A stretch of 64,000 bases of DNA. It comes from Limisalsivibrio acetivorans. GTDB lineage: Bacteria > Chrysiogenota > Deferribacteres > Deferribacterales > Geovibrionaceae. The notes below the pieces were generated by a model. It was given only the letters and a program-made list of their open reading frames with translations. It was not told where the DNA came from and ran no database searches. Made by a program: the position numbers and the translations under genes. Of the stretch, positions 46,031 to 64,000 are shown piece by piece. Location of the stretch: positions 372,001-436,000 of the forward strand of contig NZ_ATWF01000002.1 in assembly GCF_000421105.1 (NCBI RefSeq), given 5' to 3'. Numbering within the stretch: position 1 is the first letter of the stretch; each line of letters opens with the position of its first letter.

Positions 46031-46124
46031 CTTAATGGGATGCAGTGGTATAGCTCTGTATCTTGTGAAGGTTTTGCGAGCTTCGGCTTTCCCTTCATTT
46101 CTCCATAAAATACGGGGGTTTATG

Positions 46125-48065
46125 ATGATAGAGAAGAAGAACTACCGTGCGCTCAAGGAGTGCAGACCCGAACTTTACCAGCTCATGCTCAAGACTAAGC
46201 GGAGCGACCGCTACAAGATGATCAACTCCGCCCACCCCAAGAAGTACCCTAACCTCATAAACCTGCGTACGAACACCATGTTCTATGAGAATAACGACCC
46301 CGTGGGGGCCTCCAGAAAGTCCATAATGGACAAGAAGATAAACGTGCCCCAGGTCTCCTATTTCCTAGGCATGGGACTCCTCTACAACATTTTCAACTAT
46401 CTTGATATGTATAACTTCCACGACTGCACATACATAGTCATTGAAAAGGATGCAGAGCTGTTCCACCATATTCTGGAGTTCATCGATATCGAGCAGATCA
46501 TCCGTGACCAGCGTGTTCACCTCATCGTAGGCAAGGATGTAAGCGAACTGTACCCCGTTATCAACGGCATTCTATTCAAGGGGGCAAACAAGTTCTACGC
46601 CAAGGCGCTCAACATCATAGAGGAGCCCGCCGCCTTCACCGCCCACAGGGAATACTATTCCGGAGTAATGCGCACCATTCGGGATGCCGTTCGCGAGGTT
46701 GTTCTCTTCTATGGTAACGATCCCCTCGACTCTCTTATTGGTATCGAGCACACCTTCATCAACATCAATGAGATAATAGACAATCCAGGGATTAAAGACC
46801 TCGAAGGGCGCTTCAAGGGGAAGCCGGGCATCGTAGTGGCAACCGGTCCCTCCCTTAATAAGAATGTCCATCTCCTCAAAGGTTTGGAGGATAAGGCCGT
46901 TATCTGCTCTGTGGACGCATCGATGCGTGTACTGAAGAATCACGGGCTTAAGCCCCATATGGTGACATCCCTCGAGCGTGTGGAAGCGACCAGCAGGCTC
47001 TTCGAGGAGATTACCGAAGAGGATGCGGAGAAGGTTTTTCTCGCCGCAGTCCCCGTTGTACACCCCAAAACCTATGAGAACTATCCCGGCGAAAGGATCG
47101 TTGTCTATAGAAACTTCGCAACCTTCCACTGGCTCGATATCAAGAAGGGTATTCTGGACATAGGCCCCTCATCTGCGAACATGGCCTTTAAGGTGCTGGA
47201 ATTCCTCGGCTGTGATCCTATTATACTCATCGGGCAGGACCTCGCCTTTGGCCCCGATGAAACAACCCACGCCGAAGGAAGTACCTACGGCGAAAAGGAG
47301 GAGCAGTACTCCAAGCCGGACAGAACGCTCACCGTGGAGGGTAACTTCGTTCCCGAGATCAAAACATCAGTGGTCTGGAACGCCTTCCTTAAGTACTACA
47401 CCAAGGATGTGGCAAACTACAGCGGAACCGTGATCAACGCCACCGAAGGGGGAGCAAAGATCCACGGAACCAAGCTGATGACATTCGCCGATGCCATCGA
47501 CAAACATATAAAAGACCAGCCTTCCATGGATGTCTATCAGATGATAAAAGGTGATCTTGAGGAGATAACCGATGAGCTCCGTGAGGAGCACAGGGATATC
47601 ACCATGGAGCGGGTTGATGAGAGTATAGAATACTGCGAAGACGTTATGCACCGCTTCTACGAGGGCTATAAGATCGGCGATGAATACGTTGAGAAGGTCC
47701 TCAAACCCTATGAAGATGGGGAGCCCTACAACATGGAGCTCGGCATGAGCATGTTGAAGGAGCTTGAGAAGACGATGCAGATCTTCAACGAGCAGAAGTT
47801 CTTCAACATACTGATGCACTATGTGCAGTCCTACTATATCAAGTCTGTCATTGACATTCAGGGTGTACGTGCAGGGCATGAGGAACAGCACATAAAGAAT
47901 AACAAGGTGATGTCCATTCTCCGGGATCTCTTCGGGGTTATGGTTGAGCTGATCAAGAAGATGCTCCAGCTTCTGCATATCCTCAAACAGATACTTGAGA
48001 TCACCAGCGGAAAAAATACTGAAAAGGATAATGATACTGATGAGCGAACAACAACAGAGAATTAA
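46125..48065 (+). CDS. Maf/DUF115-family flagellin glycosyltransferase
   Basis: This 646-aa protein is of the motility-associated-factor type. The DUF115 (MptE-like) core begins near residue 235 with GIVVATGPSLNKN and VDASMRVLKNHGLKPHMVTSLE, and continues with GPSSANMAFKVLEFLGCDPIILIGQDLAF. An N-terminal domain of about 200 residues has the second Rossmann-like unit (SYFLGMGLLYNIF). Maf proteins move nonulosonic acids onto flagellin Ser/Thr. The location beside the flagellins supports this. ATG 46125 has GGGGG six bases upstream; an ATG directly before it is possible. Its end overlaps the next gene. Confidence 0.88.
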   Translation: MIEKKNYRALKECRPELYQLMLKTKRSDRYKMINSAHPKKYPNLINLRTNTMFYENNDPVGASRKSIMDKKINVPQVSYFLGMGLLYNIFNYLDMYNFHDCTYIVIEKDAELFHHILEFIDIEQIIRDQRVHLIVGKDVSELYPVINGILFKGANKFYAKALNIIEEPAAFTAHREYYSGVMRTIRDAVREVVLFYGNDPLDSLIGIEHTFININEIIDNPGIKDLEGRFKGKPGIVVATGPSLNKNVHLLKGLEDKAVICSVDASMRVLKNHGLKPHMVTSLERVEATSRLFEEITEEDAEKVFLAAVPVVHPKTYENYPGERIVVYRNFATFHWLDIKKGILDIGPSSANMAFKVLEFLGCDPIILIGQDLAFGPDETTHAEGSTYGEKEEQYSKPDRTLTVEGNFVPEIKTSVVWNAFLKYYTKDVANYSGTVINATEGGAKIHGTKLMTFADAIDKHIKDQPSMDVYQMIKGDLEEITDELREEHRDITMERVDESIEYCEDVMHRFYEGYKIGDEYVEKVLKPYEDGEPYNMELGMSMLKELEKTMQIFNEQKFFNILMHYVQSYYIKSVIDIQGVRAGHEEQHIKNNKVMSILRDLFGVMVELIKKMLQLLHILKQILEITSGKNTEKDNDTDERTTTEN

Positions 48066-50075: not shown

Positions 50076-50588
50076 ATGAGCATAATAGAGGATTTCCTTC
50101 ACGGTCTAAGGGAGCGTATCGCCTCTAAGAAGAGGGATTACAACCGCATACTCCCATCCGGCGACTATCTTATGGACCGCTGGGAGAAGGCACGTCTTGC
50201 AGGCTTCGGTGAGGGAACCTCTATTTACGACAGCTCGGTTGTGATCGGGGATGTCCGTGTTGGGAAGAACACATGGATAGGCCCCTTCACAGTCCTGGAC
50301 GGTTCGGGAGGCCTTAGTATCGGGGATAACTGTTCTATCTCCGCTGGTGTGCAGATATACTCCCACGATTCTATTAAATGGGCGCTTAGCGGGGGCCAGG
50401 ATGATTATGAGTACGCCGAAACGAGTATCGGCAGCAACTGCTACATAGCACCAAATGTGATTATTCAAAGGGGAGTGACGATAGGAGACGGGTGCATAAT
50501 AGGTGCAAACAGCTTCGTTGCATCAAGTATTCCTGCCGGACACAAGGCCTATGGAAATCCTGCCAAAGCTTTTCCCATAGAGGACTGA
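50076..50588 (+). CDS. Left-handed beta-helix acyltransferase
   Basis: The 170-aa protein is built of hexapeptide repeats ([22 protein letters not shown], then [17 protein letters not shown] and [31 protein letters not shown] in broken form). His in YSHDS is the likely catalytic base, as in WbbJ-type sugar O-acetyltransferases, and it ends [10 protein letters not shown]. It is probably a sugar O- or N-acetyltransferase for the island glycan. Its stop codon abuts that of the convergent formyltransferase gene with no gap. Confidence 0.82.
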
Positions 50589-51374
50589 CTAGCCCCTTTC
50601 CCTATCCTTTCTCAAGCGGCCGACCTCTTCCATGGAAAGGTAGCAGTCGACATACACCCTTTCCCCCTCCTTTTCATAGTATGCACCCCTTAAAGGTTTA
50701 ACCTGAGCCCTTATGAGATTGAAGATCCCCCTGTCCGTCATTGAATCAAAATCTATGCAGGGGTAATCGGGTGTGAGTCTGGGGTTCTTGGTGGCCCGGC
50801 TATCGTCCTGCTTTGTTCCTTCGGGCTTCTCTCTCAATAAAGCCGGAACAGTCCTGCTCAAAAGGTCGAAGGCTCTCTGCTTCAAGCGCTCATTCAAGCT
50901 AACCCATGTATCCGTTTCCCTGATCTCTTCCCTTGCAGATGAAATAATCTCGCCTTCGTCAAAGCCTTCGCTCATCCGGTGTATTGTAACCCCTGTAACG
51001 CTCTCATCACGTATAATTGCCCACTGGACAGGGTTTGGTCCTCTGTTGAGCGGGAGTAGCGCATAATGGACATTGTATGCCCTGCCGCCGAAGAGCTCCA
51101 AGATATCACCCCTTATGAGCATGGAGTAAGAGTTGCATATGAGCACATCCGCTCCGCATTCCTGAACCCTGCGGGAGAACTCGGTATAATCAGGCGTATT
51201 GTACTTCGGCTGAATGATTAGCTGAGCATTCGACTGTGCGGATAGCTCCTCGAGCTCATTGATATACCGGGGGCGCACCGAGGCACCGACGATTCCGCAG
51301 ATACTCTCCACCGGAATAAGCTCCATAAGCTGGGATACGCCGAAACTGTCACCCACAAGAAGAACTTTTGTCAT
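50589..51374 (-). CDS. Sugar formyltransferase-like protein 1
   Basis: This 261-aa protein has the formyltransferase N-terminal fold. The catalytic triad is N101, H103 and D139 in YNVHYALLPLNRGPNP and FDEG, and GVTIHRM is typical. The long methionyl-tRNA C-terminal domain is missing. Family members like this one transfer formyl from N10-formyl-tetrahydrofolate to an amino sugar nucleotide. It overlaps the methyltransferase gene by 4 bp (ATGA) and is expressed with it. Confidence 0.8.
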   Translation of the reverse strand: MTKVLLVGDSFGVSQLMELIPVESICGIVGASVRPRYINELEELSAQSNAQLIIQPKYNTPDYTEFSRRVQECGADVLICNSYSMLIRGDILELFGGRAYNVHYALLPLNRGPNPVQWAIIRDESVTGVTIHRMSEGFDEGEIISSAREEIRETDTWVSLNERLKQRAFDLLSRTVPALLREKPEGTKQDDSRATKNPRLTPDYPCIDFDSMTDRGIFNLIRAQVKPLRGAYYEKEGERVYVDCYLSMEEVGRLRKDRERG

Positions 51375-52324
51375 ATCTTACCGAATCTTCCGCTATAGCA
51401 TGCAGGTTCAGTATGAAAATAAAGTGCTTTCAGGAAATTCCTCTCCGCCATCTCCATAAACTCTTCCCTGCTGTATCTGTCCGCCTTGGCGGGTGAATAC
51501 CAGTCGAAATTGATCATCACAGAAGATTCCTCACCAAGCTCCTCATTCCAGTAACATTTAAAGAAGTTCCAGTACAAAAACCTCTGCAGATCATACTCAC
51601 CACCTTCGATTCCGAGAGCCGGTATGTCCGGCACGTTTATCTTTGCATCAAGCCCGCTTAAAACCCTGCCGAGTTCAGTCATTTGTTTAGAAAACTCCCA
51701 TAGCTCTTCCTTGGTGAGGTTCATGCATTCCTCCCTGAAATACGTATCAAGGAGCTCTCTGGGTATCGCTTTTTTACGGTATACATAACATGCAAACTCA
51801 CCATCAGGGCTGAGGAGAGAGGCGAGTTCATCAAAGGTTATACCAGGGTCAGTGGTATGATGCAGAACCTGATCACAGCTCACATAATCCACAGCACCAC
51901 TGTGTATCCCCGTGTCTGCTATATCACCTTTAACAAAGTGCAGGTTTTCATAACCGCCATATCTCTCCGATGCCACCTCGATGGAGGAGGATATATCCAT
52001 CCCGATTATGGTAGTATCCGGTGCCATTTCTGCAAACCAGGCGCTTTTATGCCCCAGCCCGCATCCGGCGTCAAGAACAACCGAGCAGCTGCGCAGATAT
52101 TCACCTAGCGATGCCTCGCTGTCAAAACCGTAAAGCTCAAGATACCAGCGTTTTTGCATCTCATAGTATCTCTTTTGGGCGGCTTCATTCTCTTTGGAGT
52201 ATACAGTCCACTTCTCACCAAATGATTCCCCTGTCTGCTGCTGGATGACGCAGTCCACAGAATCCACTGCTGAGCTGTAACCTCCACAGTCTGCTAATTC
52301 TCTATAGAATATTTCTGAAAGCAT
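51371..52324 (-). CDS. Class I SAM-dependent methyltransferase
   Basis: This 317-aa protein has the SAM motif VVLDAGCGLGHKSAWFAE near residue 80, the acidic residue in IIGMDIS and the motif IV-like DYVSCDQVLHHT. The N-terminal segment with KRYYEMQKRWYLELYGF and the long helical C-terminus resemble the methyltransferase domains of surface-glycan and flagellin-modification islands. The methyl acceptor is unknown. It is divergent from the glycosyltransferase at 52430. Confidence 0.82.
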   Translation of the reverse strand: MLSEIFYRELADCGGYSSAVDSVDCVIQQQTGESFGEKWTVYSKENEAAQKRYYEMQKRWYLELYGFDSEASLGEYLRSCSVVLDAGCGLGHKSAWFAEMAPDTTIIGMDISSSIEVASERYGGYENLHFVKGDIADTGIHSGAVDYVSCDQVLHHTTDPGITFDELASLLSPDGEFACYVYRKKAIPRELLDTYFREECMNLTKEELWEFSKQMTELGRVLSGLDAKINVPDIPALGIEGGEYDLQRFLYWNFFKCYWNEELGEESSVMINFDWYSPAKADRYSREEFMEMAERNFLKALYFHTEPACYSGRFGKI

Positions 52325-52429: not shown

Positions 52430-53620
52430 ATGCCTAAACAGGGCAAGGTCCTTTTTTTTGGCCTAAGCTACTATCATACAAACAACATTGCCGATGAGAT
52501 GCGCAAAAGGGGTTGGCGAGCAGACACCCTTAACTTCGACGACTGCGCAGACAACAACATCTTCTACCACGGAGAGGACTTCAAGTTCACCTACAACGGT
52601 ATAACAGACAACCTTAAACACCTGGCATTCTATATTAAATCACTCAAAGACTACGACATCTTCCATTTCTCCAACATGGGTGGAATAAAGATGCTCCAAG
52701 ACTGGTACAGGCTGGGAAACAGGATACCGTTCCTCCCCGAGTACTGGGATATAAAGCTGCTCAAGAAACTTGGCAAAAAGATAGTTTACTCCAACAACAG
52801 CTGCCACGATGGCCTACTCCAAAGCACCTTTGCACAGCAGGGATACTTCAACACATGCTCCATCTGCCGGTGGAAGGATGTACCAAAGGTTTGCTCAGAT
52901 GAAAAAATGAAGCACTGGGGGGAGTACAGAAACTCTGTGGTGGATTTTCATGTACACAACGGAGGACACAAGGCGGACTACAACCTGCATCCTTCAACAC
53001 ATGACGTACCGGAGTTCTACTGCCTCGACAGCGAAGTTTGGAATCCGGATCTACTTATACCGTCAAACTACCGGTTGAGCATATCCGAGGATACAGTGAA
53101 GATATACCATGCTGTCGGGCTGTATAATCAGCGTACCAAAGGCAATGTGAACGCCAAAACCAGCCACATAATCATACCATCCATCGAAAAACTCAAGAAG
53201 GAAGGGCACAACGTTGAACTGATTTTCGTAAACGACGTGCCCAACAAGCATGTTAAATACTACCAGATGCAGGCGGATATAGTTGCCGATATGCTCACCT
53301 ATGGATGGTTCGGGGCAAACATACGTGAGGCGATGATGCTTGGCAAACCGTGCATCTGCTACATAAACCCCGAATGGCGGGATAGTATCGGAGAAAGCAT
53401 ACCGGAGTACGCCCGGGATCTCCCTATTGTGAGCGCTACAGTAGACACCTTCTACGACAGACTCAAGGAACTCGTTGTCGATGCAGAAAAACGTAAAGAT
53501 ATCGGCAGAAGGAGCAGAGCCTTCGCCGAAAGGTGGCACTCGAAGAAGAGTGCGGGTGAGATATTCGAAAGGATTTACACATCCCTCATCAAGAACAAGG
53601 AGTTCCGCAGAAATGGTTAA
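52430..53620 (+). CDS. GT-B glycosyltransferase
   Basis: This 396-aa protein has a GT4-like C-terminal lobe with TVKIYHAVGLYNQRTKG, VELIFVNDVPNKHV and ADMLTYGWFGANIREAMMLGKPCICYI, where the Glu sits as in retaining enzymes. A CSICRWKDVPKVC cluster near residues 145-157 could bind zinc. It is the first gene of a long plus-strand run in which neighbours overlap, so it probably heads an operon of about eight genes. Confidence 0.72.
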   Translation: MPKQGKVLFFGLSYYHTNNIADEMRKRGWRADTLNFDDCADNNIFYHGEDFKFTYNGITDNLKHLAFYIKSLKDYDIFHFSNMGGIKMLQDWYRLGNRIPFLPEYWDIKLLKKLGKKIVYSNNSCHDGLLQSTFAQQGYFNTCSICRWKDVPKVCSDEKMKHWGEYRNSVVDFHVHNGGHKADYNLHPSTHDVPEFYCLDSEVWNPDLLIPSNYRLSISEDTVKIYHAVGLYNQRTKGNVNAKTSHIIIPSIEKLKKEGHNVELIFVNDVPNKHVKYYQMQADIVADMLTYGWFGANIREAMMLGKPCICYINPEWRDSIGESIPEYARDLPIVSATVDTFYDRLKELVVDAEKRKDIGRRSRAFAERWHSKKSAGEIFERIYTSLIKNKEFRRNG

Positions 53621-54347
53621 TCTTGACTCAGACAAAGAGTTCCTCATAACACTTGACACTGACTGGGCATCGCCGGAGATCCTAGGTTATGTATCCGACC
53701 TGCTCAAAGAATTCCGAACCTCCGCCCATTGGTTTATAACCGACAATGGTTTTCGTGAAGCAGGCATAAACGATGCCCCCCTTTTTTCCATCGGAATACA
53801 CCCGAATATGATGGAAGGATCCACCCAGGGGAGGAGCGTGAAAGAGGTATTCGACTATCTACTTAATCTCGCCCCCGATGCTGAATCCATGCGCACTCAC
53901 TCCCTTTTCCAGTCCACTCCTTTTTTCTCAGAAGTTATTGAGCACTACCCGCAGATTAAAACAGATCTGTCCTGCTACACCCCCTTCAATCCAAACCCGA
54001 AACCCTTTAACCTTCATCTGGACAACGGTTCAATCTGCAGGCTCCCCTACATATGGGAAGACGACCTGAACATGTATATGCCGGAGAGTGACAGGTTCCT
54101 CAAATGGGGAGCCTTTACCCCCGAAACTACCTTCATTACCACAGATTTTCATCCGGTGCACATTGCACTGAATTCAGCTGATATGTCCGCCTACAAAAGA
54201 ATGGTTTCAGAGCACAGTCTTTCATCTGTAGATCTTAAAACCCTCAGGAAATACAGGAATAACAGTGTCTACGGAACGGAAGACTTCCTTCGTGATATTC
54301 TGAGCCAATGCCGCAGCGTTTCGCTTAGGGAGGTGACGGCATGCTGA
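53613..54347 (+). CDS. NodB/polysaccharide-deacetylase-like protein
   Basis: The 244-aa protein opens with EFLITLDTDWASPEIL, a TxDxD-type metal-binding motif like NodB motif 1. It then has SAHWFITDN, SIGIHPNMM (a His as in motif 2) and SLFQSTPFF. This fits a divergent polysaccharide deacetylase fold as found in O-antigen clusters; catalysis is not certain. ATG 53613 lies inside the end of the previous gene with AAGGAG upstream. Removing an acetyl group before N-formylation by the next gene product would be a sensible sequence of steps, but that is inference. Confidence 0.6.
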   Translation: MVNLDSDKEFLITLDTDWASPEILGYVSDLLKEFRTSAHWFITDNGFREAGINDAPLFSIGIHPNMMEGSTQGRSVKEVFDYLLNLAPDAESMRTHSLFQSTPFFSEVIEHYPQIKTDLSCYTPFNPNPKPFNLHLDNGSICRLPYIWEDDLNMYMPESDRFLKWGAFTPETTFITTDFHPVHIALNSADMSAYKRMVSEHSLSSVDLKTLRKYRNNSVYGTEDFLRDILSQCRSVSLREVTAC

Positions 54348-55255
54348 GGGTCGGTTTCATGGGCAGAACCTCTTTCATGATGAATACGATACAGCTTATT
54401 CATGAATCAGGGTTTCCCATCGCTTTTATTGCAACGGCACCCGCCGCCCAGGAATACATTGTAAATGAACAAGATTTTCAGGAAACTGCTGGCAGACTGG
54501 GTGTGCCCTTCTACGGAAAGGAGATAGGCTCCGGGGAAATATCCAGATTATCTGCAGACATTATACTAAGTGTTAACTGGCCGAGGATAATCGGTGATGA
54601 ACTGATAAGTTCTGTACCCCTCGGCATATTGAATGCACACTTCGGGGATCTCCCTAAATATCGCGGGAACGCATGCCCGAACTGGGCGATTATCAATGAT
54701 GAAGACTATATTAACCTGTCTATCCATAGGATGATGGCTGGCGAGCTGGACTGCGGCTATGTACTGGCCGAAAGGAAGATTAAAAACGACGATTCCCTTT
54801 ATATAAAGGATATATACGAATGGGGGGAGGAAGCTATCCCCGAAGCGTTCCTTGAGACAGTGAAGTTGCTTTCAGAAAACAGCAAATTCCACATACGCTA
54901 CGCCGATCCTCAATCCAAGGATGCAATGAGGTGCTACCCGAGAAACATAGAGGATGGACGAATAAACTGGACGCACAGCTCCACTGAAATACTACGTCTA
55001 ATAAGAGCCTCTGGAGAGCCCTTTTACGGTGCGTTCTGTCACTATAATGATGAAGAGATAATTATAACAAGGGCAAAGCTTTATGACGATAAGGAAAACT
55101 ACTGCGCCATGCCCGGTCAAATAAGCCTTGTTGACGAAAGGGGTGTTGTTGTTATCACAGGAAAAGATAAACTCCTAATCACAGAAATAAAGCACAATGG
55201 TGAAAAAAAGCACCCCTCCAGTGTAATCAGAGGAATCAGAAAAAGACTTACCTAA
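54341..55255 (+). CDS. Sugar formyltransferase-like protein 2
   Basis: This 304-aa protein has the formyl-transfer triad N98, H100 and D137 in LNAHFGDLPKYRGNACP and ELDCG. A C-terminal domain (about residues 205-300) has YPRNIEDGRINW and EILRLIRASGEPFYGAF, as in the OB-fold that binds substrate. Length and motifs fit sugar formyltransferases better than Fmt, which would normally sit beside def. Its start overlaps the NodB-like gene and GGAGGTG precedes it. Confidence 0.82.
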   Translation: MLRVGFMGRTSFMMNTIQLIHESGFPIAFIATAPAAQEYIVNEQDFQETAGRLGVPFYGKEIGSGEISRLSADIILSVNWPRIIGDELISSVPLGILNAHFGDLPKYRGNACPNWAIINDEDYINLSIHRMMAGELDCGYVLAERKIKNDDSLYIKDIYEWGEEAIPEAFLETVKLLSENSKFHIRYADPQSKDAMRCYPRNIEDGRINWTHSSTEILRLIRASGEPFYGAFCHYNDEEIIITRAKLYDDKENYCAMPGQISLVDERGVVVITGKDKLLITEIKHNGEKKHPSSVIRGIRKRLT

Positions 55256-55317: not shown

Positions 55318-56742
55318 ATGGATATAACCGTTCTGGCCGCATGCGCAAACGAAAAGGATGCGGAACTGGCAGAGAATATCATAAAATACAACAACTTCAG
55401 CGCTAAATATGCTCTTTTCAAAATAGAAGATAACGGCCTGAGCTTTCTACGGGGCACAATCGAGCCCAAAGAAGCAGAAACCTTACCCAGGATTCTCGCA
55501 GTTATGGATAAAGAATCCGAACACTACATCCTCCTTGAGCTCATAAGGGCCGATGTGAGGAAAGGGCTCCTTCAATCAATCTTTCAGGAGTTCCAGAGAA
55601 CACGAAAAGACTACGGATATACCGATATCATCTACCATACGAAATGCAGAGCAGAGATACTCACCAGGAAAGGGGCAATCGATGCACAAAGTATTGATAC
55701 AGGCTCTTTTGCCACCATCTTCGAGGCGAGGCTGAGCCCCGCTGAGGATGTCTTCTGGACACCGTGGGAGGATGTTGTTTACTACTACAAGAAGGATGAG
55801 CGGTACTCATCACCCATGTACCTGAATATTGAGATAACCACAAAGTGCGACCTGAGGTGCCCTAAGTGCCAGTACCACGGTGATATCCAATCCTTCTGCA
55901 CATCACCTGAACGAAACTCGGACATGGATTTCGAGATGCTTAAGTACCTGATGGATCAAGCTGCGGAGTTTGAGAAAAAACCCCTGATCAACCTGCATTC
56001 GGGTGGAGAAAACGTTCTTTACTACAAGTTCAGGGAGGCTGTGCTCTATGCCGAGAAGAAGGGGCTGAAGATTATCCTCACCACCAACGGCATCTCTATG
56101 GACAAAGACCTTGCCGACTTCTTCCTCGAAAGGGAAAACATGCATGCCATATCCGTGAGCCTCGATGCAATGAGTCCCGAGATTTACGAAAAGATGCACG
56201 GTATCGACAGGTATGAGAAGGTGGTCGAAAACCTTGAATACATACTTGCCCGAAAAAAGGAGCTTGGCAAAAAATTTCCCTACGTGGGGCTTAACTGCTG
56301 CCTGAACAAGGTAAACAGCCATATATTCCACGACTACTTCGAGAAATGGAAGGATAAGGTGGATAATATAACAAACCCTATAATCTACTACTACGACGAT
56401 GAAACCAAGCTCACCCTCCCCCCCTACACCGATTTCCCGAGATTTGACTACCCGTGCCAGGTTCCGTTCCTTGCCCTCTGGGTGGACGGAAGCGGAAGGT
56501 ACTTCTCCTGCCACCACATGCCCTCAAAGACCCCCAGTGTAATGGAGCTGAGTCTCAAGGATTTCTGGGCCACTGCCATGGAGGATCTCAGAAGCTACAT
56601 GAAGGGCGAGCTTGAAAGCGACTTCTTTGATGCGCACTGCAAAAAATGCTTCATAAGGAACGCAAATAACTGCCAGTTCAGATTCTTCAACGGCAAAAAG
56701 GGCATTGCGAACCCGACTTGTTACGCATACCATATTGCGTAG
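55318..56742 (+). CDS. Radical SAM/SPASM-like protein A with SpsF-like N-terminus
   Basis: This is a 474-aa protein. Residues 1-160 form an N-terminal domain with a stretch like SpsF cytidylyltransferases (LIRADVRKGLLQSIFQEFQR, then YTDIIYHTKCRAEIL) but without the usual GSTRLPGK nucleotide loop. The radical SAM core follows with C177, C181 and C184 in TKCDLRCPKC. The C-terminal region has four cysteines (PCQVPF, SCHHM, CKKC), a SPASM-like auxiliary Fe-S site. The reaction is unknown. It is the first of four paralogues at this locus. CGGAGG precedes the ATG. Confidence 0.78.
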   Translation: MDITVLAACANEKDAELAENIIKYNNFSAKYALFKIEDNGLSFLRGTIEPKEAETLPRILAVMDKESEHYILLELIRADVRKGLLQSIFQEFQRTRKDYGYTDIIYHTKCRAEILTRKGAIDAQSIDTGSFATIFEARLSPAEDVFWTPWEDVVYYYKKDERYSSPMYLNIEITTKCDLRCPKCQYHGDIQSFCTSPERNSDMDFEMLKYLMDQAAEFEKKPLINLHSGGENVLYYKFREAVLYAEKKGLKIILTTNGISMDKDLADFFLERENMHAISVSLDAMSPEIYEKMHGIDRYEKVVENLEYILARKKELGKKFPYVGLNCCLNKVNSHIFHDYFEKWKDKVDNITNPIIYYYDDETKLTLPPYTDFPRFDYPCQVPFLALWVDGSGRYFSCHHMPSKTPSVMELSLKDFWATAMEDLRSYMKGELESDFFDAHCKKCFIRNANNCQFRFFNGKKGIANPTCYAYHIA

Positions 56743-56748
56743 GTGACC

Positions 56749-58149
56749 ATGTTTGTCATAGCCAGATGCCAGAAAGAGCAGGATGTAGTATTTGCCCGCA
56801 AAGCCTTCGAGCAGCTCCCCGAAGGAAGCTCCCTGATAATCATGGAGCGGAATTCTGGCACGCCCGACTACGATACATACTGCGCCGAAGGTGACATAAA
56901 ACTGCCTCATTCCACATACAGAAGAGCTCCGCAGCTTCTCAGCCCTACCGGTTCCGATACAGTAATTATGCATCTTTCATCGGTGGATGCCGATGCCGGT
57001 ATCCTCGGAAGAGCACTGGAAAAGCATAGAGCATCAAAAAAGCCCTACTCCCTTTTCAGCTACAATATGTTCACCAAGGCAAGGTTTGAATTCATAAACA
57101 AAGAACTGCTTGCTACAGCATCCCAAAGGGAATCGGAATACCTTTATGACACACCCGATGCTAACTTCTCCCACGCCATATGGCCGGATAAAGAGGACTT
57201 CAGCTCATACTACAAGGACAACTTCGAAAGATACTTCGCATACCCCCAGTCCATCTCTCTGCAGCTCACCCCTAAATGCAACAAAAGGTGCCCTAAATGC
57301 CTCTACCACTCGCCGGAACTCATGGGTAACAAGAAATCACCCACTCCGGAGGCGGATATGCCCATTGAAACCGCCGAAGCACTGCTGAAAGAGATATCCG
57401 GATGGAGCACACGCCCCGTTGTTTCACCTTCTTGCGAGAGCGAGCCTTATATGTACAGGGATATTGAACGCTTCATTTCCAGTGCCGAAGGCTATGGCAT
57501 ACCCATACACATAACCACAAACGGAACACTCCTGAATGAACAGAACATAGACTTTATGCTCGGCAGAAAGAACCTCCACGCCCTCGTTTTCAGTGTGGAT
57601 GCCCTGAGCGAGGAGACCTATTCCCAGATGCAGCCGCCGGGGAGATTGAAGGATATTGAGAAAAAGATCCTCTATGCCGCCGATGCTAAGAAAAGGCTCA
57701 ACTCAACGGCTTTAATATACGTAAACTGCGTAATATCTGAAAGAAACAGGGAGGAGTTCAGTCATTTGGTTGAAAGATGGATTCCCGTTGTGGACGGGGT
57801 TTCCGGGATCCTTTCCCTTGAATATACAAAAGACGGCAAACTCGCCTCACTCCCCCCCTTCTTCGATAAAGGAGAAACACTCCCCTGTAAAACTGCATGG
57901 GACACAATGTACATCTATGCAGACGGTAGCTCCATCCCCTGCGATAAGCACCCTGTAATGCTGGGGAATGTGCTTGAGGAAGGTATTCTCAATGTTTGGC
58001 GTAATGAGCGATACAAAAAATGGCGTGAATCACAGCTCAGCAACAGCCACAACTGTCATATATGGTCCACAGCCCTTGCCATACCTATATCCGAAAATGG
58101 ACGGACAGTAACTCTCACCCCCTTCACATACGACTGCAGGAAGACCTGA
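56749..58149 (+). CDS. Radical SAM protein B with SpsF-like N-terminus
   Basis: This 466-aa paralogue of A has the cluster motif at the same residue numbers (C177, C181, C184 in PKCNKRCPKC). A linker YYKDNFERYFAYPQSISLQL precedes it and is shared in form with the other copies. The N-terminal domain starts MFVIARCQKEQD. The C-terminal region has PCKTAWDTMYIYADGS and a later Cys, but lacks the CxxC pair, so the SPASM-type site is reduced. ATG 56749 with AGGTGA upstream is chosen over GTG 56743, which abuts the preceding stop. Confidence 0.78.
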   Translation: MFVIARCQKEQDVVFARKAFEQLPEGSSLIIMERNSGTPDYDTYCAEGDIKLPHSTYRRAPQLLSPTGSDTVIMHLSSVDADAGILGRALEKHRASKKPYSLFSYNMFTKARFEFINKELLATASQRESEYLYDTPDANFSHAIWPDKEDFSSYYKDNFERYFAYPQSISLQLTPKCNKRCPKCLYHSPELMGNKKSPTPEADMPIETAEALLKEISGWSTRPVVSPSCESEPYMYRDIERFISSAEGYGIPIHITTNGTLLNEQNIDFMLGRKNLHALVFSVDALSEETYSQMQPPGRLKDIEKKILYAADAKKRLNSTALIYVNCVISERNREEFSHLVERWIPVVDGVSGILSLEYTKDGKLASLPPFFDKGETLPCKTAWDTMYIYADGSSIPCDKHPVMLGNVLEEGILNVWRNERYKKWRESQLSNSHNCHIWSTALAIPISENGRTVTLTPFTYDCRKT

Positions 58150-60026
58150 TGCGTATCCTTATGCTCCTTCCGGATATATATATGGATTCCACTCTGGGCT
58201 TCCCGCTGGGAGCCCTTTATATATGCTCCGTACTAAGGGATGATGGGAATGATGTACGTCTGGAGCTCATATCCAGCTCCAATGCACGCTATGATACCTT
58301 AACAGCCCTGGAAAAACATGCACCCGAGGCCATTTGTGTTTCGGCAATAGTGACCGAATTCACGATTATAAGGGAAATCCTAAAGACATGCAGGGCGCAT
58401 TCACCTGATGCGCTAAGAGTGCTCGGAGGAGCCCTGCTCTCTAGCAGGCCGGAGCTGATAATGGAAAATACCGATGCGGATATCGGTATAATCGGCGAAG
58501 GGGAGATTACGGCATCAAAGCTTTTCAAGTGCATAAAAGGCAATGACGATTTTGAAGATGTCCGGGGAATAATATACCGCAAGGACGGAAGCATGTTCAA
58601 GACCCCTTCGAGGGAGCTTATTCAGGATCTGGACAGCATCCCATTCCCTGCCCACGACCTAATAGACTACGGGCGATACCTCTCAACACGCCCGAGATCA
58701 AATTTCATGTATTTCTCCGCCGTGGACAATCCAAGAACGGCATCGATCATAACATCAAGATCCTGCCCCTACCTTTGCACCTTCTGCTATCACCCCATGG
58801 GGAGAGGAACATACCGTAAGAGAAGCATGGACAACGTTTTCGAAGAGATCGATTACCTTGTAAAAAACTTCGGGATAAACTTCCTTTATCTCAGCGATGA
58901 CATGTTCTCCGCCAACAGGGAGAGAGTCCTTGAGTTCTGCAGAAGAATCAGGGAGTACGGAATAAACTGGTATGCCCAGATGCGTATTCAGGCCGCATCC
59001 GGGGAGCTTCTCACAGCCATGTATGATTCCGGCTGCATAACAGTGGGCTACGGCGTAGAAAGCATTAATCCGGATGTTCTGAAGAGCATGAAGAAAAAGA
59101 GCTCAAAGGAGCGGATTGAGAAAGCTCTGGATCTTACAATCAAAAACAGGATATTCCACAGCGGACTCATCATCTTCGGCGATCCCGCAGAAACGTTCTC
59201 CATGGCGCAGGAATCCATAGAATGGGTACGTTCAAACCCTCAATACAACATAGCTGTAACACCGATACTCGCCTATCCCGCCTCCGAGGATTATCTATAC
59301 GCAGTAGAAAAAGGCTTTATCACCGACGAGATAGAGCATATCGAAAAAGAGTGCCCCCCTGTAAACTTCAGCAGAATGGACGACAAAGAATACAGGGATA
59401 TCTTCATAGAGGGGCGGAACCTCTGGCAGAGGATAAACACTTCAAAAGAATCATTCTCCTTCAACTATGAGGGGAATGACGGAGAAGACTTCATATACAC
59501 AGTTAAGTCAAAATGCCCCGCCTGTTCAGAGGAATCTGTCTATAAAGGCTTTCGGGCATTTGCATTGACGAATACGAACTACTCGCCTATTGAGAAGTTT
59601 GTCGTAATGTGCAAGCACTGCCGCCAGAGGGTCGATATACTCCCCATGTGGATACCACACATCGAAGCGGCTTATCTGGAATCTGCCGAATCGCTGAACC
59701 CTATTCTTGAGAAACTCGCCGCAGAAAAAACCCCGGTTGCCCTCACACCTTTCATCCACGAAAAGGCTTTAGAAAACATGAACAGTATATACAGCCTGGA
59801 GGGTCTTAATATTGTCAGCGTCATGGACAGCAACAGTTTCCTGCACGGCTACAAATACCTAAACAAGGCAGTTGTTACGAGACAGAATAAAACTGCCTAC
59901 TCCGCACTGCCGGAGAATACCGCTGTAGTAGTCCTGCCCACGGGCAAGCGGAAAATGATCGAGGAAATTGTTAAAGGGTTTGCCGCCGGTAATATTATAA
60001 ATCTTCTGCCGGAGGTCCGGACATGA
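58149..60026 (+). CDS. B12-binding-type radical SAM protein C with Zn-ribbon and extra C-terminal domain
   Basis: This is a 625-aa protein. A cobalamin-binding-like Rossmann domain (about residues 1-135) lacks the DxHxxG histidine. The radical SAM core has C206, C210 and C213 in RSCPYLCTFCYHP, followed by SDDMFSANRERVLEFCRRI. After the core (about residue 430) there is a four-Cys zinc-ribbon-like segment (CPAC and CKHC). The last 110 residues look Rossmann-like (TPVALTPFIHEKAL, VVVLPTGKRKM). The ATG overlaps the stop of gene B. Such enzymes methylate unactivated carbons, ligate or rearrange; the role here is unknown. Confidence 0.78.
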   Translation: MRILMLLPDIYMDSTLGFPLGALYICSVLRDDGNDVRLELISSSNARYDTLTALEKHAPEAICVSAIVTEFTIIREILKTCRAHSPDALRVLGGALLSSRPELIMENTDADIGIIGEGEITASKLFKCIKGNDDFEDVRGIIYRKDGSMFKTPSRELIQDLDSIPFPAHDLIDYGRYLSTRPRSNFMYFSAVDNPRTASIITSRSCPYLCTFCYHPMGRGTYRKRSMDNVFEEIDYLVKNFGINFLYLSDDMFSANRERVLEFCRRIREYGINWYAQMRIQAASGELLTAMYDSGCITVGYGVESINPDVLKSMKKKSSKERIEKALDLTIKNRIFHSGLIIFGDPAETFSMAQESIEWVRSNPQYNIAVTPILAYPASEDYLYAVEKGFITDEIEHIEKECPPVNFSRMDDKEYRDIFIEGRNLWQRINTSKESFSFNYEGNDGEDFIYTVKSKCPACSEESVYKGFRAFALTNTNYSPIEKFVVMCKHCRQRVDILPMWIPHIEAAYLESAESLNPILEKLAAEKTPVALTPFIHEKALENMNSIYSLEGLNIVSVMDSNSFLHGYKYLNKAVVTRQNKTAYSALPENTAVVVLPTGKRKMIEEIVKGFAAGNIINLLPEVRT

Positions 60027-61429
60027 GCCTTATCATACACGCAAGATGCCTGACAGAATCAGACAGAAACCTTGCAGAGGAGATAGCTTCCACCATAGAG
60101 GGAGCAGTTTTATATCTATACAGCAGTTCGGACGGCAAGTTCACAGCGGGAGGTAAATCGTTATATCCGGGTGAGATCCTTGAGAAGCACCAGAAAGAAA
60201 ACTCCTGTCCTGCACTGTTCCTTTATCTCCACCATGCCGACTGCCGAAGGGACTTCATAAAGCGAGCATACTCAAAATACTCTGGAAGAGGAATGATGAT
60301 AGCCTCACTGAACCCCCTATTCCGCCTTAAAGGAGAGTTTGTATCGATAGATCTCACTGGCTACCGGAAGGACAGAGAGTTCCTCTCCTTCGGCATGACA
60401 GACTACACGCTTTTCAATCCAGAGGATGCAGACAGGGAGTTCTACTTTATAGAACGCTTTGACGAGCTGCACAGCATACCGAAATCCATAAACATACAGC
60501 TTGTTAACGCATGCAATAAGAAGTGCCCGAAGTGCCTCTTTCACTCCGAGGAGAGCCCCTTCTCACAGAATTTCAACGGTGGTGAGATGGAAGAGAGAGT
60601 ATTACAGAAAATTCTCTCCGATGCCGCCTCAATGTCTCCCAAACCTGTTATCAGCACATCCCACGGGTGCGAACCTCTCCTATACAGCAGATTTGAACAT
60701 TTCCTTGCCGAAACAGCCCGTTACGGGCTCAGGGTTAATCTAACATCCAATGCAGAGCTTCTTACTCGTGAGAAAACAGACAGGATTCTCTCCTCCGGTG
60801 CGGACATAGCAACCGCTACATTCAGTCTGGATGCTGTAAAACAAAACACATATCTCAGGGTGCAGCCCCCCGGCAACCTGGACGAAACGGAAAGAAGCAT
60901 AGAATACTTCATAGATAAGGCTGACAATGCAGGGATACCGGTTGAACTGAGCTATGTATATGATGATAATAATGCAGATGAGTTCGAGGCCTTTCTGAAT
61001 AAATGGAAGGATAAGGTCTCCATGATAACAAAGACCGACCGATTCTATATTGAGGATGGTGCATTTGTAATAGAGCCTTCGGCCGCAAACTATGTATCAA
61101 CACCATGCCATATACTCTGGAACGCCATGTTCATAGACTATCGCGGGAGTGTCTGGAGATGCGGAATGGACTTTGAGGAGAGAGGAAGCTCCCTTCCAAA
61201 TGTTTTGGAAGAGAATACCTGTAACATATGGCGGGGGGATAAGTTCATGGAGCTTCGAAGGGAGCATATTGATGGAGAACTCTCTGGTTTGTGCAGAAAA
61301 TGCCTTTGTTTTGGTCACTTCAACGACAACACTGCCGAAGAAGAGGATGGAATGCTCGTTAAGAAGTTTTACGGGTTCACCACATACAAGCCGTTAAACA
61401 AATACCACAATAAAAACACCGGAGACTAG
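60023..61429 (+). CDS. Radical SAM/SPASM protein D with SpsF-like N-terminus
   Basis: This 468-aa protein has an N-terminal domain of about 145 residues (MSLIIHARCLTESDRN). The cluster cysteines are C164, C168 and C171 in NACNKKCPKC. The SPASM region has PCHILWNAMFIDYRGSVWRC, then NVLEENTCNIW and CRKCLC. It begins in the last four bases of gene C (ATGA), so it is translated together with it. It is a paralogue of A, B and E. Confidence 0.8.
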   Translation: MSLIIHARCLTESDRNLAEEIASTIEGAVLYLYSSSDGKFTAGGKSLYPGEILEKHQKENSCPALFLYLHHADCRRDFIKRAYSKYSGRGMMIASLNPLFRLKGEFVSIDLTGYRKDREFLSFGMTDYTLFNPEDADREFYFIERFDELHSIPKSINIQLVNACNKKCPKCLFHSEESPFSQNFNGGEMEERVLQKILSDAASMSPKPVISTSHGCEPLLYSRFEHFLAETARYGLRVNLTSNAELLTREKTDRILSSGADIATATFSLDAVKQNTYLRVQPPGNLDETERSIEYFIDKADNAGIPVELSYVYDDNNADEFEAFLNKWKDKVSMITKTDRFYIEDGAFVIEPSAANYVSTPCHILWNAMFIDYRGSVWRCGMDFEERGSSLPNVLEENTCNIWRGDKFMELRREHIDGELSGLCRKCLCFGHFNDNTAEEEDGMLVKKFYGFTTYKPLNKYHNKNTGD

Positions 61430-61435
61430 TGTCAT

Positions 61436-62926
61436 ATGAGATGTTACTGGGAACTTTCCAAAAAAGCAGATAAGGAAACCATACAGCAAAACCTTAATGT
61501 TCTTTTGAACAGCAGTGCCGTTGAAAGCATCCATATACCGGGCAACGCACTGAAGGAAAACCCCTGGCTGGCTGAGTATGCAACAACCGCCCCGGATGAA
61601 TTCTACACATTCGCAGAGCGCTCCCCGGAGGTTACATTACTCCGTTTTGCCCCTTTCATTAATACGGTTCCCGGCACTTTAATCGATAAAATGTACAGGG
61701 AACACAAAGAAAACGGTGCCGAATATACCTATGCCGATCTGCACGATATCTACTTCAAGGGGACCTTTGAGATCGTAGAAAGCTCTCCCATTTCCAGACT
61801 TGGAGAGAGAAGACCATTCTTCCCCGATGACTCCCTAGGGCTGTTCGGCGAGCTTAAGTTTCATGTTTATCACTTCGACGTGGAGGACTACAGTCATTAC
61901 CTGAAGGACAACTTCGACAGGTATTTCAAGTATCCCGTGTCCATATCCCTTGAATCTACCTACCTCTGCAACCTTCGTTGCGACATGTGCTGCTACCATT
62001 CAGAAAAATACGACAGAAACTGGATGGAGAATGCAGGTGCTCCGTATATGGATTTTGACAAATATACAGGATTAATCGACGAGATAGCATCCTTTGGCAG
62101 AAATCCCACCGTGGAGCTGGTTCACAGAGGGGAGCCCCTTCTGCATAAAAGACTTGTGGAGATGGTGGAATACGGCAGCAGGAAAGGAATTAAGATCTCC
62201 CTTGTAACCAACGCCCTTGAGCTTGATGCGGACAAATCAAAGTCACTTCTGGATGCGGGCCTTACAAACATGTGGTTCAGTATGGACGGTGCGGACAGGG
62301 AAACCTACGAAAGCATCAGAAGAGGTTCTAACTATGAAAAGGTTATAAAGAATATCCATGCATACATAGATACAGCGGAGAAGAGTTCCTCAAACACCTT
62401 CACTGCAATGAAATACGTCCTATCCGAAGCTAATGCAGGGGGGCGGGAGCGCATGGCCGATATGTGGCTGGACAAGGTGAACTATCTGGTTTTTCAAATA
62501 ATGAAGAAACACAACAGTGACGGCGAGTTCAGCATCATACGTGATACCAATGCAGAGAACCTGAATATAAAGGAGCGGATGCCTTGCCTGCACCTTTTCC
62601 ATACGGCACTTGTTACCGCACAAGGGAACGTGGGTCCCTGTACAAACCTGTATAACGAAAAACCGGAGCATATCATAGGAAATGTATTCGAAGAGAACTC
62701 GCTCTATGGTGTATGGGCCGGCGAAGAGTTCCGCAGGAGAAGGGAACTTGCCCTTGAAAAGAGATACAGCGAGATACCTCTATGCAACATATGCGACGGT
62801 TTCATAGCGGTACCCTACCTTCTGGATAAGAGGATGGAAGGAAACCGCTTTATCATCCACGACGACTTCGGATATATCTACACAAAGGCAGATGACAAAA
62901 AACTGTACCCGAATTTCACTTTCTAA
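61436..62926 (+). CDS. Radical SAM/SPASM protein E with SpsF-like N-terminus
   Basis: This is a 496-aa protein. The N-terminal domain shows the clearest SpsF-like block of the four: PGTLIDKMYREHKENGAEYT followed by YFKGTFEIVESSPI (about residues 79-120). A linker DYSHYLKDNFDRYFKYPVSI follows, then C178, C182 and C185 in YLCNLRCDMC. SPASM cysteines are PCLHLF, VGPC and CNIC, with GNVFEENSLYGVWAGEEF between. It starts 6 bp after gene D and is convergent with a methyltransferase, overlapping its end by 11 bp. Confidence 0.8.
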   Translation: MRCYWELSKKADKETIQQNLNVLLNSSAVESIHIPGNALKENPWLAEYATTAPDEFYTFAERSPEVTLLRFAPFINTVPGTLIDKMYREHKENGAEYTYADLHDIYFKGTFEIVESSPISRLGERRPFFPDDSLGLFGELKFHVYHFDVEDYSHYLKDNFDRYFKYPVSISLESTYLCNLRCDMCCYHSEKYDRNWMENAGAPYMDFDKYTGLIDEIASFGRNPTVELVHRGEPLLHKRLVEMVEYGSRKGIKISLVTNALELDADKSKSLLDAGLTNMWFSMDGADRETYESIRRGSNYEKVIKNIHAYIDTAEKSSSNTFTAMKYVLSEANAGGRERMADMWLDKVNYLVFQIMKKHNSDGEFSIIRDTNAENLNIKERMPCLHLFHTALVTAQGNVGPCTNLYNEKPEHIIGNVFEENSLYGVWAGEEFRRRRELALEKRYSEIPLCNICDGFIAVPYLLDKRMEGNRFIIHDDFGYIYTKADDKKLYPNFTF

Positions 62927-63770
62927 GCCTGTATACTCCGCCTATTCCTGCAAAGAGCTTATCTTTCATAGGAAAACCTCTACCACTGAACTGGAGTGAA
63001 TCGAGGAACTCCCTTGATTCCTCCGGAAGTCTCTCATCCTTGAGGGCGTCCATATACTTATAGCGGAGCATCTCCATCTCCCTTTCGCTTATGTAGCCGC
63101 CGGCAAACTCAGCATCGAAACCTACATTCCGGCATAGGGATATAAACTCTTTGGGTACAAAGGGTTTTGAGACGGGACAGTTCTCGCCGTCCGTCGTTCT
63201 GGAAAAGGCTTCCTCGGGACTGAGCCCTTCAAAATGACCTTTTTTGATCATCCTCTCATAAACTGTGAAAAGATGAAACCAGACGCTCTCCCTGTTGTAC
63301 ACCATAACAACACCTGTACCGCTCGGCCTGAGAACTCTGTAAAGCTCCTTTAAAACATCTGCGGGGGAGCTGCTGTGATGGATAACACCGGAGGAATGGA
63401 CATGGTCAATACTCCCTACATCAATTGGAATACTCTCCCCTTCCTGAATTTTTATAAGCTCTACCCTTTTACTGTCAATACCGTAAAGCTTCAGCCTGTC
63501 TTCAAGGAGCCCCAGAGCCTTCGAGGATATATCCAGTGAAAATACTTTACTGGCACCACCTTCCATCAGGTATCCGATGGTGTCATCACCGGGTCCGCAG
63601 CCATAGTCAAGTACAGTCTGCCCCCCTCTGTCACCATAAAGATCCATAAGCTCTTTCATCTTGGGATAGATATCGCTCCTCCAGAGCAGATACCTTTCCG
63701 ATTCTTCCTTTGATGTAAATGGAGTAGAGTTCACAGTATGCTCTTCCCAGTATCTCTCTATATCGTTCAC
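62916..63770 (-). CDS. Class I SAM-dependent methyltransferase
   Basis: This 284-aa protein has the SAM motif VLDYGCGPGDDTIGYL near residue 50, the acidic end of beta 2 in VFSLDIS, and HSSGVIHHS. GTG 63770 is chosen as start: AGAGGTGG precedes it, and MNDIERYWEEHTV is a usual beginning for this family. A longer frame to 63917 would overlap the radical SAM gene upstream by 125 bp. It follows that gene by 22 bp on the same strand. The methyl acceptor is unknown. Confidence 0.82.
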   Translation of the reverse strand: MNDIERYWEEHTVNSTPFTSKEESERYLLWRSDIYPKMKELMDLYGDRGGQTVLDYGCGPGDDTIGYLMEGGASKVFSLDISSKALGLLEDRLKLYGIDSKRVELIKIQEGESIPIDVGSIDHVHSSGVIHHSSSPADVLKELYRVLRPSGTGVVMVYNRESVWFHLFTVYERMIKKGHFEGLSPEEAFSRTTDGENCPVSKPFVPKEFISLCRNVGFDAEFAGGYISEREMEMLRYKYMDALKDERLPEESREFLDSLQFSGRGFPMKDKLFAGIGGVYRLRK

Positions 63771-63792
63771 AGTCCACCTCTGTCTATTACAG

Positions 63793-64000
63793 CTATTCCC
63801 AGCTGTCGTTGTCTGTTTTATGCCAAAAGTTCGGAAAAAGGCTCCATACGCTACACCTTTCACAGAACTCAAGTTCCTCAGGTCTGTTCTGCAGATGAAG
63901 CCTTCTGTATTCTGCAAGCTTTTCCCCTTTCCATATACCCTCGAAGTCCTCCTCCATAATATTCCCCAGGGGGTTCTTCTCCCCTGTTACGTGGATAAAA
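63793..64000 (-). CDS. Radical SAM/SPASM protein F, C-terminal end only
   Basis: The last 69 residues of a gene entering from the right edge are visible. They show NPLGNIMEEDFEGIWKGEKL followed by a CERC pair. This is the usual end of a SPASM domain and closely resembles the ends of proteins D and E. The radical SAM core lies outside the window, so the call is by likeness of this tail. The stop codon is at 63793-63795. Confidence 0.6.
   Translation of the reverse strand, partial: FIHVTGEKNPLGNIMEEDFEGIWKGEKLAEYRRLHLQNRPEELEFCERCSVWSLFPNFWHKTDNDSWE

Follow-up and report, generated by a model that had tools for sequence, protein, structure and literature searches.

Here we describe an operon of five radical SAM genes, lying end to end within a flagellin-glycosylation island of Limisalsivibrio acetivorans, in which three or four of the proteins, all members of a known superfamily, have a new N-terminal domain in front of the radical SAM core. 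The operon (genes A–E, Table 1) was analyzed in a window of 64,000 nucleotides of contig NZ_ATWF01000002.1, and gene coordinates are given as positions in that window. Clusters for bacterial surface glycans repeatedly include radical SAM genes, most of them without an assigned role; the present locus, where an intact SpsF gene lies close to five such genes, offers a compact place for testing what these enzymes do.

Organization of the Operon and the Surrounding Island

The genes A–B–C–D–E form one tightly coupled operon. There is no gap between A and B, the start codon of C lies within the stop codon of B (shared sequence TGATG), C and D have four bases in common, and six bases separate D from E; a formyltransferase gene on the same strand ends 62 bases upstream of A. 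The original prediction of four radical SAM proteins (A, B, D, and E) is confirmed, PF04055 lying far above its cut-off in each, and their CX3CX2C motifs, expected at residues 177, 177, 164, and 178, were found at those positions in all except B, whose motif falls at 177 if the protein is counted from an ATG two codons downstream (Table 1). Gene C, which lay outside that four-gene finding, is the third gene of the operon, flanked by B and D. Its best NCBIfam match is the PhpK-type P-methyltransferase family (143 bits against a cut-off of 600), and its C-terminus, about 250 residues without assignment, holds CPAC/CKHC pairs.

Table 1. Genes of the radical SAM operon and of the island around it. 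Positions refer to the window unless a sequence handle precedes them.
Feature	Position	Strand	Remarks
Flagellin	39667..42102	-	811 aa
Flagellin	42928..45363	-	811 aa
Maf-type flagellin glycosyltransferase	46035..48065	+	MptE-like domain; 45% identical to Maf of G003
Hexapeptide acyltransferase	50076..50588	+	61% identical to counterpart in L037 island
Second formyltransferase	50589..51374	-	
SAM-dependent methyltransferase	51371..52324	-	Relatives in L037, Lawsonia, and Smac51 clusters
Glycosyltransferase group 1	52430..53620	+	
WbmS-like polysaccharide deacetylase	53616..54347	+	Overlaps formyltransferase gene
Formyltransferase (Fmt/ArnA type)	54341..55255	+	Directly upstream of A
Gene A	55318..56742	+	474 aa; motif CDLRCPKC at 177; N-terminal domain 1–146, diverged linker, radical SAM core, C-terminal Cys 380/398/441/444
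Gene B	56743..58149	+	468 aa; motif CNKRCPKC at 179; N-terminal domain 1–147, linker YYKDNFERYFAYPQSI, radical SAM core, SPASM/twitch Cys 382/400/438 only
Gene C	58149..60026	+	B12-binding radical SAM protein, motif CPYLCTFC
Gene D	60023..61429	+	468 aa; motif CNKKCPKC at 164; N-terminal domain 1–132, diverged linker, radical SAM core, SPASM/twitch Cys 362/380/424/427
Gene E	61436..62926	+	496 aa; motif CNLRCDMC at 178; N-terminal region (11–109 = best SpsF match), linker YLKDNFDRYFKYPVSI, radical SAM core, SPASM/twitch Cys 384/402/450/453
SAM-dependent methyltransferase	62916..63917	-	Downstream of E
Sixth radical SAM gene	L007:10794-11774		Beyond the window, after methyltransferase 62916..63917
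SpsF	L008:12352-13176		Intact loop ARTGSSRLPAK
Third flagellin	L008:14652-17096		

Flagellin, Maf, and nonulosonate genes cluster around the operon. Past the sixth radical SAM gene, further beyond the window, lie two asparagine-synthase-like genes, aminotransferases, and WbqC, and the right side of the island carries PseB, PseH, PseI, a formyltransferase, PseG, an intact SpsF, PseC, and the third flagellin (these genes were named by eye from their translations, SpsF also by PF02348). The pseudaminate set looks complete and includes an intact SpsF. In another genome of the same family (G003), a matching locus repeats the order argC–argJ–radical SAM–WbqC–Maf–flagellin–NeuB, with a radical SAM gene that lacks the extra N-terminal domain. 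The glycan and flagellin setting proposed earlier is therefore well supported by the three flagellins, the Maf gene, the pseudaminate set, and the synteny with G003, and this context clearly favors glycans over ribosomally synthesized and post-translationally modified peptides (RiPPs) as the business of the operon. The three flagellins that flank the island are unusually large (811–814 aa).

The N-Terminal Domain and Its Linker

Profile alignments in which each of A, B, D, E, and one outside protein, L037 from the Desulfovibrionaceae, was left out in turn (linker removed, 100 shuffles each) show that A, B, and D share with L037 a single N-terminal domain of about 150 residues. Each of these four N-termini aligns to the profile of the other four over 100–112 columns with a score of 26–35, which 0/100 shuffles reached in every case. 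E aligns to the other N-termini over residues 77–116 only (likewise 0/100 shuffles), so that its statistical support covers the second half of the domain. The original claim that all four proteins carry the domain accordingly holds for A, B, and D and, within residues 77–116, for E. The linker said to be common to them (YxKDNFxRYFxYPxSI) is clear in B and E only, D and A having a diverged form; since a comparable element, EYRxxWxxYPxxxxxxxYPLxxDIExxxxCNLKCPMC, occurs in many ordinary radical SAM proteins of glycan loci, the linker is a trait of the wider family.

The N-terminal domain of A, B, D, and E was recognized by no Pfam or NCBIfam model, with the exception of a faint TIGR04321 match in the N-terminus of E (residues 71–103, E-value 0.024). 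TIGR04321, the spiro-SPASM family, resembles these proteins in joining a radical SAM core and a C-terminal SPASM domain to a long N-terminal region (the model has 510 positions, with the Cys motif near 240), and it is among the best NCBIfam matches of all four (60–85 bits). These matches, however, cover model positions 210–505 only and fall far below the cut-off of 250 bits, the N-terminal half is unmatched, and the N-terminal regions found here fall short of the spiro-SPASM one by about 60 residues.

Possible Descent From SpsF

The N-terminal domain had been read as a decayed SpsF-type cytidylyltransferase that has lost the GSTRLPGK loop. The absence of the loop was confirmed by alignment in A, B, D, and E and extends to L037, while the separate SpsF gene of the island retains it (Table 1); cytidylyltransferase catalysis by the four proteins is therefore very unlikely. 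Descent from SpsF is plausible but unproven, and we lean slightly towards it. The family profile scored 27.2 against a first SpsF profile, for which the shuffled maximum was 18.8, and E alone, compared with a diverse SpsF profile, ranked first among about 310 real protein pieces, SpsF itself aside. Residues 11–109 of E align to SpsF 25–135 over 96 columns, and residues 68–150 of B align to SpsF 88–183 in a register that agrees with that of E; the register common to B and the family profile spans the block strand-[GA]D-helix-strand-DxExF. Within this block, the Asp of the SpsF [GA]D metal position is kept in A, B, D, and L037 (the island SpsF reads TADCP), and the Glu of DxE[IV]F is kept in A, B, D, and E. 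The likeness consists of a weak in-register profile match with mostly conserved Asp and Glu positions, whereas the loop is gone, Pfam finds nothing (PF02348, CTP_transf_3, gave no match at E-value 10 to any of the N-termini), and an intact SpsF exists separately in the island. Neither A alone nor D alone matched the SpsF profiles. Support for a decayed SpsF domain is moderate and falls short of decisive, and statistically the link is not clean.

The domain could instead be an unrelated alpha/beta domain of its own, serving protein–protein docking or electron delivery, with a likeness to SpsF that arose by convergence of short motifs. Such an origin is possible, although we do not favor it. It would account for Cys9 and Asp14, which are invariant in the alignment of the domain family and have no SpsF counterpart, and it fits both the unrelated formyltransferase profile that, used as a decoy, scored 25.8 against the 27.2 of SpsF, and the KdsB profiles, which gave no match to the N-terminal domain. 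Other radical SAM proteins of glycan loci have N-termini of 130–230 residues that by eye look just as SpsF-like and yet have no profile match, a warning against judging such likeness by eye. Convergence explains less readily that the family profile, like B and E, falls in one register with SpsF, that Asp and Glu are retained, and that E ranks first. Two supposed links to SpsF that had been drawn by eye were dropped: the linker form DxxxDYxxYlkdnF was not borne out by profile alignment as the SpsF C-terminal DTPEDYxLI, and the N-termini from Campylobacterota and from Calothrix and Desulfovibrionales received no profile support as bridges.

Structure prediction had been suggested as a check on the fold. 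In an AlphaFold model of B, which is of moderate confidence outside residues 41–70, the first 130 residues follow the order strand-helix-strand-strand-helix-strand-helix-strand-strand-helix, which is compatible with the GT-A/nucleotidyltransferase fold. In E (modeled from five sequences), most of the N-terminus has a pLDDT below 50. A whole-chain Foldseek search of the PDB with the model of B listed only radical SAM proteins, matched through their cores, with SuiB at the top.

Radical SAM Cores and Auxiliary Cysteines

All five proteins exceed 29.5 bits with PF04055, past its cut-off, and the cores of A, B, D, and E are mutually 25–32% identical. The SPASM model PF13186 is above cut-off in B, D, and E, and A is below Pfam detection with a C-terminal Cys set that is twitch-like. 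A, D, E, L037, and the island's sixth radical SAM protein have four C-terminal Cys in the pattern C..G..C / CX2C, as expected for enzymes with a single auxiliary cluster. In B, Ser replaces the third of these Cys (58040–58070; NSHNC vs xCxxC), which leaves three, and the protein also lacks the GGE-like glycine, so that a different cluster or a lower activity is possible for this protein. The Ser in B also hints at an open iron site or at cluster loss.

Among solved structures, the best profile match is BtrN (E-value 1e-17), followed by MoaA; BlsE and DesII, both of which act on sugars, were also matched. BtrN is a twitch enzyme that performs a two-electron oxidation and whose auxiliary cluster has four Cys ligands (PMC9012708). 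The cysteine pattern of A, D, and E is likewise of the one-auxiliary-cluster type, and the four auxiliary Cys, with BtrN as the nearest structure, suggest a BtrN-like oxidation or epimerization of a sugar. BtrN differs in having no such N-terminal domain and in acting on 2-deoxy-scyllo-inosamine.

SPASM/twitch enzymes are common among RiPP maturases, and together with the first place of SuiB in the Foldseek search this would agree with an N-terminal domain that acts as an RRE-like peptide-binding module and with a ribosomal peptide as substrate. We consider this very improbable, and the maturase reading was rejected for want of an adjacent precursor gene: the genes of the operon abut or overlap and leave no space for one. 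The RRE is a small fold, and both the length of the N-terminal domain and the order of strands and helices in the model of B are unlike it. The neighbors in the homologous loci examined are mostly glycan genes, the Calothrix locus excepted. A predominance of homologues beside RiPP precursors would have spoken for peptides; the sole outside homologue of the domain, L037, lies in a glycan island.

Origin and Distribution

The four proteins had been described as an array of paralogues, as if by local duplication, a view that a tree of 47 sequences does not bear out. B is sister to the L037 protein (99/85) within a clade of B, D, and L037 (100/99), whereas A and E branch elsewhere, with weak support. 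Recent tandem duplication was rejected on these placements; the array was instead put together from lineages that are old and that in part also occur in another phylum. Genomes were searched in the organism's own phylum (51), in the order of L037 (347), and in the phyla of G059 (395), G052 (399), and G053 (298). In these some 1,500 genomes, a thin sampling that leaves outside the spirochaete chromosomes in which spiro-SPASM proteins are to be expected, no full-length homologue of the N-terminal domain beyond L037 was found, and viral contigs searched with E, B, and SpsF held no relatives.

Proposed Function

The analysis demonstrates the structure of the operon, its motifs, the domain common to A, B, D, and L037, and the setting in the island; which substrate is used, what reactions take place and in what sequence, and what the N-terminal domain does are inferred from these data. 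Our judgment is evenly balanced on the joint reading in which the operon tailors a sugar of the flagellin glycan and the N-terminal domain is a stripped SpsF/GT-A fold. On this reading, the radical SAM enzymes would act on an unusual sugar, either an activated nucleotide sugar or an intermediate, and alter its carbon skeleton, after which Maf-type transferases would attach the tailored sugar to the flagellins. A, D, and E would each abstract a hydrogen from its sugar, turning an alcohol into a ketone or epimerizing a center, and C, which has a B12 domain, would contribute a methylation. The N-terminal domain would be a nucleotidyltransferase fold of the SpsF/GT-A type, and, having lost the CTP-binding loop, it would be unable to make a CMP-sugar; it may nevertheless serve to bind the substrate, whether sugar or nucleotide sugar, or to dock the enzyme onto the pathway. 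The more specific proposal, that a dead cytidylyltransferase domain holds the nucleotide sugar while the fused enzymes of the operon act successively on one activated flagellin sugar, strikes us as rather doubtful.

A pseudo-cytidylyltransferase at the N-terminus, if that is what the domain is, would suggest that the substrates are sugars activated by CMP or another nucleotide and that bacterial flagellins bear radical-modified sugars. A front domain left over from a sugar-activating enzyme would suggest a novel means of delivering sugars to radical enzymes.

Related Loci in Other Genomes

The L037 island contains relatives of at least eight genes of the L. acetivorans island, among them a radical SAM protein with 58% identity to the sixth of those described here. 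In the plasmid clusters of Lawsonia, strain Smac51, and Solidesulfovibrio, a radical SAM gene is accompanied by DegT and by varying members of the set AsnB, methyltransferase, and WbqC. The sequence analyzed around L037 and around the plasmid clusters gave no flagellin hit, and so these enzymes belong to glycan clusters generally and not to flagella as such; a tie to flagella was seen in this lineage only.

These loci also bear on another possible target of the operon, namely the polypeptide of the flagellin, or the glycan after its transfer, in place of a free or nucleotide-bound sugar. The operon is located between flagellin genes, and SPASM enzymes that act on proteins exist, such as the anaerobic sulfatase maturases. 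We nevertheless judge this improbable: homologous radical SAM genes recur in glycan clusters without a flagellin hit in the sequence analyzed, and some stand beside NeuB or are fused to it. On a Rhizobium plasmid (L211:5800-9613), a radical SAM gene, NeuB, an intact SpsF, and a PseG-like gene are consecutive, followed by WbqC, and a 706-aa single protein of a Lachnospiraceae MAG (L101:8792-10909) is a NeuB-type nonulosonate synthase fused to radical SAM. Both connect this radical SAM superfamily with nonulosonate genes, as would be expected if the operon tailors a sugar, but they differ from the L. acetivorans genes in that the radical SAM protein is short and, in L211, SpsF is intact and separate.

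Radical SAM arrays in glycan clusters have precedents, one known and others found here. Several consecutive radical SAM genes lie beside rfb and glycosyltransferase genes on the 36-kb plasmid of Brachyspira hyodysenteriae (PMC4267127); unlike those of the present operon, the proteins are of about 330 aa, lack the N-terminal domain, and (five of them) form their own clade in the tree. In Campylobacterota (L224:8633-15288 and L225:7994-12603), two or three radical SAM genes stand beside glycosyltransferase-like and AsnB genes, but their N-termini (185–227 aa in the complete ones) form a different, unassigned family that profile alignment matches neither with SpsF nor with the domain described here.

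Further architectures were seen among these relatives. At L037:8138-11179, in the Desulfovibrionaceae MAG, a methyltransferase precedes the domain and radical SAM/SPASM in a single reading frame of about 800 aa, which thus has three modules. A third type of N-terminus, about 135 aa long, is common to a Calothrix plasmid protein and to radical SAM proteins of Desulfovibrionales (L192:7746-9176, L226:7435-8808, and L227). In a further genome of the same family (G009), the radical SAM relatives L013 (G009:C12:60207-61094) and G009:C3:25414-25785 contain one in-frame TGA each.
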